From the NCBI GenBank assembly GCA_015066525.1, contig SVOG01000005.1, positions 1 to 64,000 on the forward strand: a DNA stretch of 64,000 bases, in the 5' to 3' direction. This stretch comes from Oscillospiraceae bacterium (GTDB lineage: Bacteria; Bacillota; Clostridia; Oscillospirales; Acutalibacteraceae). A program made the translations under genes and the position numbers. Under the pieces are notes generated by a model, which saw only the letters and a program-made list of their open reading frames with translations, did no database searches and had not been told where the DNA came from. This document shows, one piece after another, positions 6,489 through 45,682 of the stretch; within the stretch, counting starts at the first letter, position 1; each line of letters starts with the position of its first letter.

Positions 6489-7697
6489 GTGAAACGAAAG
6501 AAACTGACCGCAGTATTGCTGACATTCGTGTTGATTGTGAGCGGTCTTGCTTTCGGCGCGATAGAGTCCTTCGCGCAGACGGTGACCATTACAGATTCGC
6601 TGCTGAATACGGATATTAATAAGACTGTGAGCGGTTATGACGATAATATCTGGTATGTCTATACCCCGAGTGAATCGGGTATTTACACCCTATACGGACT
6701 GAGCACCAATGTGCTTGCCACCGAGGCGTATCTCTTTTCCAAAACGGAGGACGAGGACGGCAAGAAACTGTATACCCAGCTTGCCTATTCCAACTCCAAC
6801 CCTGACTACGCGCAGTATGAGGGCTCGGCAGCACGGCAGTTCTGCCTGAAGTATCATCTGACAGCGGGCGAGACATATTACTACGCCGCGGGATGGAATA
6901 ATCCGCAGCGCACGAGCGGAACGGTCGGCGTGCGGATGATTTGCGAGTCCTATGATACGGCGACGGTGGTGCGGGTGACGCCGACGTGCGACGCGTCTCT
7001 GACCTGGTATACCGACGGCTCGTGGGAAACGGATGCCAAGGGGCAGTCGTATTATCGCTATAATATCTCGAAGATCATGCAGAATATGGTCGTGACGGTG
7101 GAGTTTGACGACGGCACCGTCCTGACTTCAAAAAAAGGCGAAACCACGGTGAACGGTTACCCGATTACCTATACCCATAAGCAGGACGAGGTGCATTGGT
7201 ACAACCGCGACAACGAGCTGTATACCGCCAATACGTTGCGGGTTTCCGTGCTCGGTGTCAGCGCTGATTACGAGGTCAATATTGCGCAGGACGCGCTCTT
7301 TAATGTAAAGGGCAGGGTGACCGATGCTTTTGACGGCGCCGTAATCGCGGGCGTAGGAATAGAAATCGGCGGCAACGTGGTCGCCACGACGGACGAAAAC
7401 GGCGTATTTCAAATTCTTTCCGCACCGGGAACGATGTCGGCGTATGTGACGGGCGGCAGTGTCGTCAGACGCGCTTTTACGCTTACGGTGGATGCGGCGA
7501 GTACATCGGGTAATGACCATACCGCCACTCCGATTGCAGTTTATAATGTGGATTATATCGACGATGATGTTGTAAACGGCAGGGACTATGCCTATATTCA
7601 GCGCAGTCTCTCGTCGGATACACAGGCGAAGGCAAAGAAGGAATTTGCCTCCTGTGTCGGATTTGCGAGCGGCGACTATCCCGCCCTCGTGTTATAG
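6489..7697 (+). CDS. secreted multidomain protein with carboxypeptidase-regulatory-like domain and dockerin-like half-repeat
   Basis: Signal peptide; VKGRVTDAFDGAVIAGVGIEIGGNVVATTDENGVFQI; C-terminal VDYIDDDVVNGRDYAYIQR. Confidence 0.7.
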   Translation: MKRKKLTAVLLTFVLIVSGLAFGAIESFAQTVTITDSLLNTDINKTVSGYDDNIWYVYTPSESGIYTLYGLSTNVLATEAYLFSKTEDEDGKKLYTQLAYSNSNPDYAQYEGSAARQFCLKYHLTAGETYYYAAGWNNPQRTSGTVGVRMICESYDTATVVRVTPTCDASLTWYTDGSWETDAKGQSYYRYNISKIMQNMVVTVEFDDGTVLTSKKGETTVNGYPITYTHKQDEVHWYNRDNELYTANTLRVSVLGVSADYEVNIAQDALFNVKGRVTDAFDGAVIAGVGIEIGGNVVATTDENGVFQILSAPGTMSAYVTGGSVVRRAFTLTVDAASTSGNDHTATPIAVYNVDYIDDDVVNGRDYAYIQRSLSSDTQAKAKKEFASCVGFASGDYPALVL

Positions 7698-7709: not shown

Positions 7710-7973
7710 ATGAAGATTAAACAAGGCTTTGCCAAGCGGAATATCGCAGGCTCGAATATTGTCGTACCCGTGGGGAAGAATTCGCTGGAATTTAACGCGA
7801 TGATTACGCTGAATGATACCGGCTCATTTTTGTGGGACGCATTTCAGAAGGACATCACCGTTGACGACGCGGTGGCACTCATTACGGCGGAGTACGATGT
7901 CGCACCCGAGAGGGCAAGAGAGGATATCGAAAAGTTTGTCGCCCTGCTTCGGGATAACAATTTATTTGAATAA
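7710..7973 (+). CDS. PqqD family protein (RiPP recognition element-like)
   Basis: 87 aa; LNDTGSFLWDAFQKDITVDDAVALITAEYDVAPERAREDIEKFVALLRDNNLFE. Confidence 0.75.
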   Translation: MKIKQGFAKRNIAGSNIVVPVGKNSLEFNAMITLNDTGSFLWDAFQKDITVDDAVALITAEYDVAPERAREDIEKFVALLRDNNLFE

Positions 7974-13557: not shown

Positions 13558-13978
13558 AGAAGCAACACTTTGTGATGTTGCAGAAATACTAAGAATTGAA
13601 CAGGCGTGTTTTTCCACGCCGTGGACCGAGCAGGGAATACGCGAGAGTATCGAGAATGAAAATACCCATCTCTATCTCGCCCTTGCCGACGGAAAAACGG
13701 CGGGGTATATGGGCGTGCAGATTTTCAGCGGTGAAGGATATGTGACAAATGTCGCAACCCTGCCCGCGTACAGACGCCAAGGCGTTGCCAAAGCGCTGAT
13801 AGAGCGCGTGCTTGGAAATGAAATGGACTTTCTCACCCTCGAGGTGCGCGAGAGCAACGCCCCCGCCATCGCGCTTTATGAGAGCCTTGGTTTTGCGCGC
13901 ATCGGCGTGCGCCCGCATTTCTACCGCAACCCCGACGAAAACGCTCTGTTAATGACAAAATATAAGGAAAAAGTATGA
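13544..13978 (+). CDS. rimI: ribosomal protein S18-alanine N-acetyltransferase
   Basis: GNAT fold, LPAYRRQGVAKALI, ALYESLGFARIGVRPHFY; adjacent to tsaD. Confidence 0.9.
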   Translation: MTHIKEATLCDVAEILRIEQACFSTPWTEQGIRESIENENTHLYLALADGKTAGYMGVQIFSGEGYVTNVATLPAYRRQGVAKALIERVLGNEMDFLTLEVRESNAPAIALYESLGFARIGVRPHFYRNPDENALLMTKYKEKV

Positions 13979-43601: not shown

Positions 43602-45047
43602 ATGAAACGATTATTATCAACAGTTCTGGCACTGACGATGCTGCTTGCGTCACTGTCAGCCACCCTCAGCGCACAGGCAGCAACCCCAAACGCTCCGGCG
43701 TTTTCTACGGATAGCGGCGCCTACACGGACAGCGTAACAATCGTTTTGCGCTCAGGCTCACTGCTCAACACCGTGTATTACAGGATTTACGAGTACGGAA
43801 TGAACAACCACGCAGGAGCGTTAAAACAGGACACAACAAGATATGTCCTGCCATTCAAAATTACCGAGTCTTGCTACATAGATGCCTGGTCGGATAATGG
43901 CGATGAAACAAGTGAAGTTGTAACCAACCGATACTATATCCGTTATTCAAGCGATGAGGGCAGGTTTACGGTTGACGAGGACGGCGTGCTGAGGGGTTAC
44001 ACGGGCAACACACCCAACCTGGTTATTCCGGATAAGGTGGACGGAATAACCGTTACCAAAATCGGCAGTCAGGTTTTTACCCAGTACAAAAGAGATAACT
44101 ATTACGGCACTATCCACTACTACAACAACGATGATTATTCAAACTTTCTTGAAAGCGTTACGCTGCCTGACACCTGCACCGAGATTGAGTATGCGGCGTT
44201 CTGTGCCTGTGTACATTTGAAAAATGTTTACGGCGGAAATCTGAAAATAATTGGCGATTATGCGTTTGATCGATGCGTTTCGCTGGAAAGTATTGATTTG
44301 TCAAATACAGAACTAATTGACAGGTACGCTTTTGAATATAACCAATCGCTGAAAACGGTTGAAAGCGATACCGTCAAAACGGTGCGTGACAAAGCGTTTG
44401 AATACTGCACGCTTGAGCGCCTTGTTCTGCCAAATCTGGAAACGCTCGGCGATGGCGACATTTATAGCAAGTACATCAATATCGGCAAGGTTGAGGAGCT
44501 TCGTTCGCGTGACCAATACCATGTAGGCAACCGCATCACTACCTCCACGATGCTGGCACCAAACTTAAAAAAGATAGGCGGAACAACCATCGTTCACTAT
44601 GCTTCATCTCCGCGCGATGTAATTGTCCCCAAACTTGCGGGGGCGCTTGGTGCGTCTATTCGTCTGAGTGACAGCGGTCTGCGTTTTGGCTTCAACTGGG
44701 ATAACGGTACCGATTATCAGGCGGCACATACGGACGATGTGGAGTACGGTTTTGTGTATGCGTATGAACGCACCGACGATTTGACCGTGGAAAACGGCAA
44801 AAGGCGTGTTGCTGAAAAGCGTGTGGACGCGGACGGAAAAACCTCATTTAACCTCGTGTTTACCGACATTCCAAAAGCGAATTACGATACCGAGATTTCG
44901 GCTCGCGCGTATGTTCGCATAAATGGCGTATACTTCTATTCCGACATTCTGACGCGCTCGTTTGAGGGCGTGGCAAACGCCGTGCTTGCCGACCCCGATA
45001 TTGACGAGAATATCAAGTCGCAACTCAGACTGACTCTGGAGGCGTAA
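43602..45047 (+). CDS. secreted leucine-rich-repeat (BspA-like) protein
   Basis: Signal peptide MKRLLSTVLALTMLLASLSATLSAQA; LRR pattern FLESVTLPDTCTEIEYAAFCACVHLKNVYGGNLKIIGDYAFDRCVSLESIDLS. Confidence 0.8.
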   Translation: MKRLLSTVLALTMLLASLSATLSAQAATPNAPAFSTDSGAYTDSVTIVLRSGSLLNTVYYRIYEYGMNNHAGALKQDTTRYVLPFKITESCYIDAWSDNGDETSEVVTNRYYIRYSSDEGRFTVDEDGVLRGYTGNTPNLVIPDKVDGITVTKIGSQVFTQYKRDNYYGTIHYYNNDDYSNFLESVTLPDTCTEIEYAAFCACVHLKNVYGGNLKIIGDYAFDRCVSLESIDLSNTELIDRYAFEYNQSLKTVESDTVKTVRDKAFEYCTLERLVLPNLETLGDGDIYSKYINIGKVEELRSRDQYHVGNRITTSTMLAPNLKKIGGTTIVHYASSPRDVIVPKLAGALGASIRLSDSGLRFGFNWDNGTDYQAAHTDDVEYGFVYAYERTDDLTVENGKRRVAEKRVDADGKTSFNLVFTDIPKANYDTEISARAYVRINGVYFYSDILTRSFEGVANAVLADPDIDENIKSQLRLTLEA

Positions 45048-45048
45048 T

Positions 45049-45165
45049 ATGAAAGAGGAATACATAAAACCCATCACACAGGTTGACGAATATGAAACCA
45101 CCGACATCATCACTGCCAGCACCGTCGGCGTTGACGACGAGGGCTGGATTGATAAGTGGTATTAA
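45049..45165 (+). CDS. small peptide 1 (38 aa), putative precursor-like peptide
   Basis: Own translation MKEEYIKPITQVDEYETTDIITASTVGVDDEGWIDKWY; starts 1 nt after the upstream stop (TAATATG). Confidence 0.7.
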   Translation: MKEEYIKPITQVDEYETTDIITASTVGVDDEGWIDKWY

Positions 45166-45183
45166 TGATAAAGGAGAATAATG

Positions 45184-45303
45184 ATGAAAGAAAAATACAC
45201 CAAACCCGAAACAAGAATTGACGAATATGAAACTGTTGATGTTATCACGACAAGTGCGGCGGATGTGCAGGACGACGACAACGATGTGCCGTTCGGCAGT
45301 TAA
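45184..45303 (+). CDS. small peptide 2 (39 aa), paralogue of peptide 1 in its N-terminal half
   Basis: Own translation MKEKYTKPETRIDEYETVDVITTSAADVQDDDNDVPFGS; ribosome binding site AAGGAG at 45171. Confidence 0.72.
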   Translation: MKEKYTKPETRIDEYETVDVITTSAADVQDDDNDVPFGS

Positions 45304-45682
45304 TATAAAGCGGCTGATTATCGTATTATCCGTGCTTGTTACTTTTGCTGCGTTGCTCACCGCCTGCGCTGTGCCCAAAATAACGGGCAGCGCGGCTCGC
45401 AAAACTGCTGAAAAAGAGGCGGAACTCTTCGATACCACCGAGGAGAGCGAGATTGTCGTGACTGGCGTTCCACAGAGCACAACAAAAGCGGCAGAAAGTA
45501 ACGAAACAACAACCAGAACAAACTCAAACTCCGATACTTTAACACAAATTGCGGATAACGATGTAACCTTCAGCACTTCAAAATCAGAAACAATGCACGC
45601 CGCCGCACAATCTACCACACAAAAAGAAAAGCCCACTCAGTCGCAAACCGACGCGGAGGGCTGGATTGACAAGTGGTACTAA
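45284..45682 (+). CDS. small Ser/Thr-rich lipoprotein ending in EGWIDKWY
   Basis: Lipobox IVLSVLVTFAALLTAC, Ser/Thr-rich linker, C-terminal DAEGWIDKWY; overlaps the end of peptide 2. Confidence 0.7.
   Translation: MCRSAVNIKRLIIVLSVLVTFAALLTACAVPKITGSAARKTAEKEAELFDTTEESEIVVTGVPQSTTKAAESNETTTRTNSNSDTLTQIADNDVTFSTSKSETMHAAAQSTTQKEKPTQSQTDAEGWIDKWY

Follow-up and report, generated by a model that had tools for sequence, protein, structure and literature searches.

The window, that is, the whole stretch of 64,000 nucleotides that was analysed, carries at positions 43602-45682 a four-gene operon encoding a leucine-rich-repeat (LRR) surface protein, two micropeptides and a lipoprotein. Its features, together with a stand-alone gene from the first part of the window, are given below, where LPP stands for linear polyphosphorylated peptide.

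7710..7973, + strand: stand-alone PqqD/RRE gene (Pfam PqqD, E=2.4e-17)
43602..45047, + strand: LRR protein, a Sec-exported BspA-type leucine-rich-repeat surface protein of 481 aa (Pfam LRR_5 PF13306, E=1.3e-19; signal-peptide-like N-terminus MKRLLSTVLALTMLLASLSATLSAQA)
44625..45044, + strand: C-terminal domain (CTD) of the LRR protein, predicted beta-sandwich with two C-terminal helices, carrying the 'SF..VA.AVL.D' extension
45049..45165, + strand: peptide 1, a putative LPP-like RiPP precursor of 38 aa (leader MKEEYIKPITQVDEYETTDIITAS, core TVGVDDEGWIDKWY)
45139..45162, + strand: EGWIDKWY, core tail of peptide 1
45184..45303, + strand: peptide 2, a putative LPP-like RiPP precursor of 39 aa with the core ...DDDNDVPFGS
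45277..45300, + strand: DNDVPFGS, core motif of peptide 2
45284..45682, + strand: lipoprotein of 132 aa with lipobox LTAC and a Ser/Thr-rich stalk (start codon inferred from the reading frame)
45554..45571, + strand: DNDVTF, internal lipoprotein motif echoing the peptide 2 core
45656..45679, + strand: EGWIDKWY, C-terminal tail of the lipoprotein, the same as the peptide 1 tail

The ATG of peptide 1 stands 1 nt past the stop codon of the LRR gene, and peptide 2 is preceded by an AAGGAG sequence, with an additional in-frame ATG at 45181 that would lengthen it to 40 aa. The lipoprotein probably starts at the ATG at 45284, within the last codons of peptide 2 and in a different frame, and ends with ...DAEGWIDKWY at 45682. 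The codons of the tail differ synonymously between peptide 1 and the lipoprotein (GATAAGTGGTAT and GACAAGTGGTAC, respectively). An earlier note on this DNA had described the four-gene order, the ORFs, the shared tail and these synonymous differences, all of which hold on re-reading. It had missed that the LRR protein ends in a separate conserved domain of ~140 aa and that the internal DNDVTF of the lipoprotein echoes the DNDVPFGS of peptide 2. No LPXTG motif was seen in the LRR protein, and Rfam and tRNA scans of the 64-kb window gave no matches.

The peptides were searched by profile in 80 genomes of the host genus, which is that of [Eubacterium] coprostanoligenes, and in 391 genomes sampled from the class Clostridia. 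Peptide loci were found in 64 of the 80 genus genomes, with up to 11 per genome, and in 30 of the 391 class genomes, with up to 15. The genome from which the window comes (1.64 Mb assembled, 74% complete, called here the own genome) carries a second locus on contig C35, where two further peptides lie behind a 1183-aa secreted protein. Alignment of 34 genus peptides revealed invariant K2, E3, Y5, P8, D19 and S24; the core that comes next is acidic and varies. Judged from these sequences, the micropeptides are a large, unnamed Clostridia family with a YxKP leader, an invariant Ser in "ITTS" and a variable core. They have no match above cut-off in Pfam or NCBIfam, which makes plausible the earlier remark that such small ORFs often go unannotated, and a profile is now supplied for these genes. 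A phage origin was rejected, as no peptide match was found in phage records and no match to the tail pattern in viral contigs. One family member (1500-1616 of locus L277, genome G502) has a Cys-containing core (SGCGGCANETEEDVLG) and is followed by a 457-aa protein.

LPPs are RiPPs described from the lppA-K-B-S-D-N genes of Paenibacillus alginolyticus, in which an RRE binds the YxxP motif, a kinase phosphorylates core Ser3, a SipW-like peptidase cleaves the leader and the ABC exporter is MsbA-like; their biological role is unknown according to the authors (Popov et al. 2026, PMC13381572). The present peptides resemble LPPs as short precursors with a variable C-terminus and a YxxP leader, the RRE-binding motif corresponding to Y5 and P8, invariant in the 34 genus peptides. 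Further likenesses are a discrete RRE, HprK-like kinase, SipW-like peptidase, ABC exporter and nucleotidyltransferase, found in the same gene order in genomes G365 and G232, and the absence of the lasso leader peptidase from 79 of the 80 genus genomes. By contrast, the leader reads YxKP...[DE][FY]xx.D[VI][IL]T[TA]S here and YxxPxVLxHQxIxFETxxS in LPPs, many family peptides having [FY]xT but no HQ, and the spacing from Tyr to the invariant Ser is 19 here as against 18 in published LPPs. Unlike in LPPs, the precursors lie behind secreted surface proteins, their enzymes are mostly encoded in trans and a lipoprotein echoes them; the words 'surface' and 'lipoprotein' have no match in the text of the LPP paper (PMC13381572). 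Since the operon at 43602-45682 encodes none of the enzymes, which form a single cluster in LPPs, and since the spacing is 19 and not 18, we term the peptides LPP-like and not LPPs. With regard to SynChlorMet, the kinase weakly matches ScmC (TIGR04249, E=3.5e-8) and PqqD weakly matches ScmD (TIGR04248), both below the NCBIfam curated cut-offs. The enzymes and the leader type have been known since 2026; the open-access papers searched gave no description of precursors scattered behind genes for secreted proteins, of the CTD or of the echoing lipoprotein.

In some other genera the enzymes are encoded next to a homologous precursor. G365 and G232 have the surface protein and the peptide first, then P-loop kinase, PqqD, SipW-like peptidase, ABC transporter and nucleotidyltransferase; G193 has the same set minus the nucleotidyltransferase and G360 the same set minus the ABC transporter, and the shorter cassettes of G493 and G107 hold kinase, PqqD and peptidase. 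At 38 class loci these last three genes occur all-or-none, all three being present at 6. The kinases are P-loop proteins with weak ScmC/HprK-related matches, and the SipW-like assignment is based on GSSM, LHR and GD motifs and on cassette position, the match to the SipW profile being weak (E=0.05). In the class sample, PqqD is encoded by 30 of 30 peptide-bearing genomes as compared to 150 of 361 others (p=2e-11, a statistic that ignores relatedness) and, after collapsing to genera, by 22 of 22 as compared to 96 of 201 (p=3e-7). With relatedness likewise ignored, the nucleotidyltransferase is present in 27 of these 30 genomes and in 100 of the 361 others; within the genus, peptides occur in none of the 8 PqqD-less genomes versus 64 of the 72 PqqD-bearing ones (p=4e-7), and the peptidase is associated with the peptides at p=4e-7. 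The cassettes and the genome-wide co-occurrence with PqqD give good support to the earlier description of the micropeptides as RiPP-precursor-like, with a leader and a variable core.

The own genome encodes three PqqD proteins, two kinase-like proteins (one adjoining PqqD), three nucleotidyltransferases (PF14907) and one peptidase homologue (G000:C66:1263-1622), which is 36% identical to the cassette protein of G493; peptidase homologues are found in 65 of the 80 genus genomes. The PqqD/RRE at 7710-7973 is a candidate leader-binding protein acting in trans. In G047 and G054, PqqD directly follows a surface protein and a peptide. The peptide-adjacent kinase of G047 (L050) is doubtful as a specific partner, since kinases of this type elsewhere in the genus have unrelated neighbourhoods of a housekeeping-like kind. 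Most genus genomes carry a kinase-like gene whose surroundings are conserved, resemble housekeeping regions and hold no peptides (L230-L237, L243-L247). In many of the genus genomes examined, a second PqqD type adjoins a ~370-aa protein and a LepA-like gene (L252, L254, L257, L258, L261, L265, L270), and the own-genome counterpart of the ~370-aa protein (C35:3142-3849) matches nucleotidyltransferase PF14907. It should also be noted that in the window a gene for a dockerin-like secreted protein (6489-7697) precedes PqqD (7710-7973) by ~13 nt, a similar pair being found in G057 (L264).

Regarding the upstream surface proteins, a peptide gene is nearly always preceded on its strand by the gene for a large exported protein. 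Such a same-strand gene lies at most 150 nt upstream in 52 of 69 cases in the genus and in 39 of 46 in the class sample, with a median gap of 23-24 nt, part of the shortfall being due to contig ends and to the simple gene caller. By a crude, heuristic signal-peptide rule, most of these upstream proteins are likely to be exported by the Sec system. A CTD profile grown from the LRR protein of the window picks up 47 members from the genus and 16 from the class among 98 upstream sequences, in which one protein may count twice when its operon has two peptides. In the genus, the majority of the surface proteins encoded ahead of a family peptide have the CTD, and recurrence of the LRR, peptide and lipoprotein gene order, a test that the earlier note had proposed, was confirmed in relatives. 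AlphaFold2 predicts a beta-sandwich with two C-terminal helices for a 160-aa CTD stretch (mean pLDDT 83, pTM 0.75, residues 1-20 below 50). The CTD of the window has no Pfam match, other members have only stray single-member matches, and a sequence search of the PDB gave no CTD match. Comparison of the predicted fold yielded a weak beta-sandwich match to CBM21 (TM 0.42-0.46, below 0.5), which is not taken as an indication of function.

The tail itself was searched at the DNA level. The degenerate pattern G[WF][IV]xxWY-stop was found at 37 places in 27 of the 80 genus genomes whereas the reversed pattern had no match in the same 80 genomes, which places the sharing of the tail beyond chance. 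A stricter pattern gave 21 loci in the GTDB collection, most of them on contigs visibly identical to those of genus members, and nearly all proved on reading to be the same lipoprotein type. The recurring lipoprotein tail is [DE]G[WF][IV]xxWY; in 29 such tails the G and the last W and Y are invariant, and the other changes are both synonymous and non-synonymous. All 19 of 19 peptide-paired lipoproteins have the tail at their end and, within the stalk, a DNxVxF-like motif, which is degenerate in L039. When the tail was removed, the lipoprotein interior scored 414 against its own peptide core, compared to 326 (sd 10) for shuffled lipoproteins. Own versus foreign pairing of lipoprotein motif and peptide core reached p=0.027 only, and a strict one-to-one covariation between them is therefore not relied on.

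Peptide 1 with an EGWIDKWY-type tail is known from five loci only. Some tail lipoproteins have no recognised peptide nearby, and in E. coprostanoligenes ATCC 51222 a surface protein and a lipoprotein are found with no recognised peptide between them. A secreted protein of G041 (L040) carries both motifs behind a different N-terminal part, so the two motifs act as a module. Outside the genus, one looser echo was found in G398, with the lipoprotein tail GVIELPEIDI and the peptide core DGVILPDDDIEP. An orphan small frame on contig C49 of the own genome (G000, 13568-13621; L106) ends with ISPTDADGWIDRWY, a tail without a recognisable lipoprotein.

Peptide core, lipoprotein and CTD subtype travel together. 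With core type A/B defined by the regular expression D[NT]D/DN[IVF][VI]/WIxKWY, which was set after viewing the sequences, the CTD extension was found in the genus with 22 of 24 peptides of this type and with none of 18 others, the upstream open frame being unrelated in the two exceptions. A tail lipoprotein accompanied 18 of 24 core type A/B peptides versus 0 of 16 others, and 18 of 22 CTDs with the extension versus 0 of 18 without it; some core-A loci have no lipoprotein. As the genes of one operon are co-inherited, this association is no proof of contact, and co-inheritance would account for part of it.

A read-through model bears on contact between tail and CTD. The genes for the surface protein and peptide 1 of G057 (L145) lie in one frame, one stop and 18 codons apart, and an artificial read-through chain of CTD, linker and peptide, with the stop read as Gly, was modelled with AlphaFold2. 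The linker and leader (165-202) had a pLDDT below 50 whereas the last seven residues (211-217) reached a mean of 90, the confidently predicted tail being EGWINKWY. Bridge residues were predicted at 205, 207, 212 and 213; position 147 of the CTD, in a conserved, subtype-specific loop of the extension, gained a single-residue bridge that the CTD alone did not show. The model no more than suggests that the tail inserts into the CTD at the end of the surface protein; the confident tail may also be a self-contained hairpin.

We propose that the operon makes a secreted surface protein plus ligands for its own CTD, with the lipoprotein as a tether, a reading to which we assign a probability of about 0.45. 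PqqD/RRE proteins would bind the YxKP leader of peptides 1 and 2; by analogy with the LPP paper, an HprK-like kinase would phosphorylate the invariant Ser of 'IT[TA]S', a SipW-like peptidase would remove the leader and the core would be exported. The enzymes would be encoded elsewhere in the genome and would serve several precursor operons. The released cores EGWIDKWY and DNDVPFGS may bind the CTD of the co-encoded LRR protein, and the lipoprotein, which bears both core motifs (in the stalk and as the last eight residues), would hold the same CTD at the membrane, so that the peptides might cap, mature, regulate or compete for the CTD. The earlier note had suggested a decoy, immunity or docking role for the lipoprotein; docking, now to the co-encoded CTD, is favoured by the association of core, CTD and lipoprotein and by the read-through model, a decoy being less likely. 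More tentatively, Clostridia might assemble their surface by means of phosphorylated RiPP-type peptides that serve as ligands for a dedicated docking domain at the C-terminus of secreted proteins, with lipoprotein tethers binding this domain too through a short linear tail that mimics the peptide, so that these RiPPs would be surface architecture and not antibiotics or signals. Cohesin-dockerin pairs and LPXTG anchoring both fix a secreted protein to the cell; in comparison, the proposed ligand here would be an 8-residue lipoprotein tail and the receptor an undescribed C-terminal domain.

The leader/core layout, the RRE, kinase, peptidase and exporter cassettes of relatives and the motifs common to lipoprotein and peptides would also suit released RiPP effectors, such as a bacteriocin or a signal, with the lipoprotein as an immunity protein or decoy bearing the same epitope. 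The constant neighbour, however, is a secreted surface protein and not a receptor or transporter, the core type tracks the CTD subtype of this protein and peptides without any tail lipoprotein are common, all of which makes such effectors unlikely; none of the results of this analysis supports a bacteriocin or pheromone role. Alternatively, the shared tail could be a C-terminal tag recognised by some factor that secretes or sorts both the peptides and the lipoprotein, with the CTD uninvolved. Such a tag would fit two findings: in every listed case the motif closes the protein, and in G041 it stands, with the second motif, on a secreted protein whose N-terminal part is different. We hold it to be distinctly unlikely, since the WY tail is absent from most peptides, tail lipoproteins accompany one CTD subtype in the proportions given above and the tail is confidently predicted in a chain with the CTD.

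Gene conversion would be easy in a translationally coupled operon because its genes overlap or abut, and with peptide 1 known to carry the tail at only five loci, the sharing could be a functionless by-product of local duplication or conversion. Against this, the lipoprotein keeps its tail even when the peptides lack it, synonymous changes occur all along the tail with G, W and Y invariant, and the two tail copies of the operon differ in codons; we regard a mere by-product as very unlikely. Paeninodin-type lasso peptides share with the family a YxxP/WxxP leader, a PqqD-like B1 protein, an HprK-like kinase and a nucleotidyltransferase, which would be compatible with lasso precursors. There is scarcely any chance of this: the acidic cores of ~10-18 residues have no constant ring position, the place of a ring-forming Asp/Glu varying among them, and no lasso cyclase (Asn-synthetase-like) was recognised in the peptide cassettes read. 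Lasso precursors were rejected as the main reading because the own genome lacks the leader (B2) peptidase PF13471, as do 79 of the 80 genus genomes.

If the operon indeed makes ligands for the CTD of its own surface protein, the coupling of precursors to surface proteins in many Clostridia genera, together with the echoing lipoprotein, would give LPP-type peptides a testable role as docking-domain ligands. It would also hint at how surface proteins in which no LPXTG was seen on reading may be anchored, in gut bacteria that include the cholesterol-reducing genus to which [Eubacterium] coprostanoligenes belongs.

Two further arrangements were observed in the genus. At L088 (1-1656, minus strand, of contig C83 in G058), a single frame fuses LRR repeats and a truncated CTD to a lipoprotein stalk and tail, as if the peptide genes had been deleted, a layout that could also come from misassembly. 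In E. coprostanoligenes ATCC 51222 (G005; L134 and L255), the stretch VWMIVNELFVAGKAMGIN precedes the tail lipoprotein and also a PqqD gene on one contig, which suggests a duplicated upstream element in this strain.
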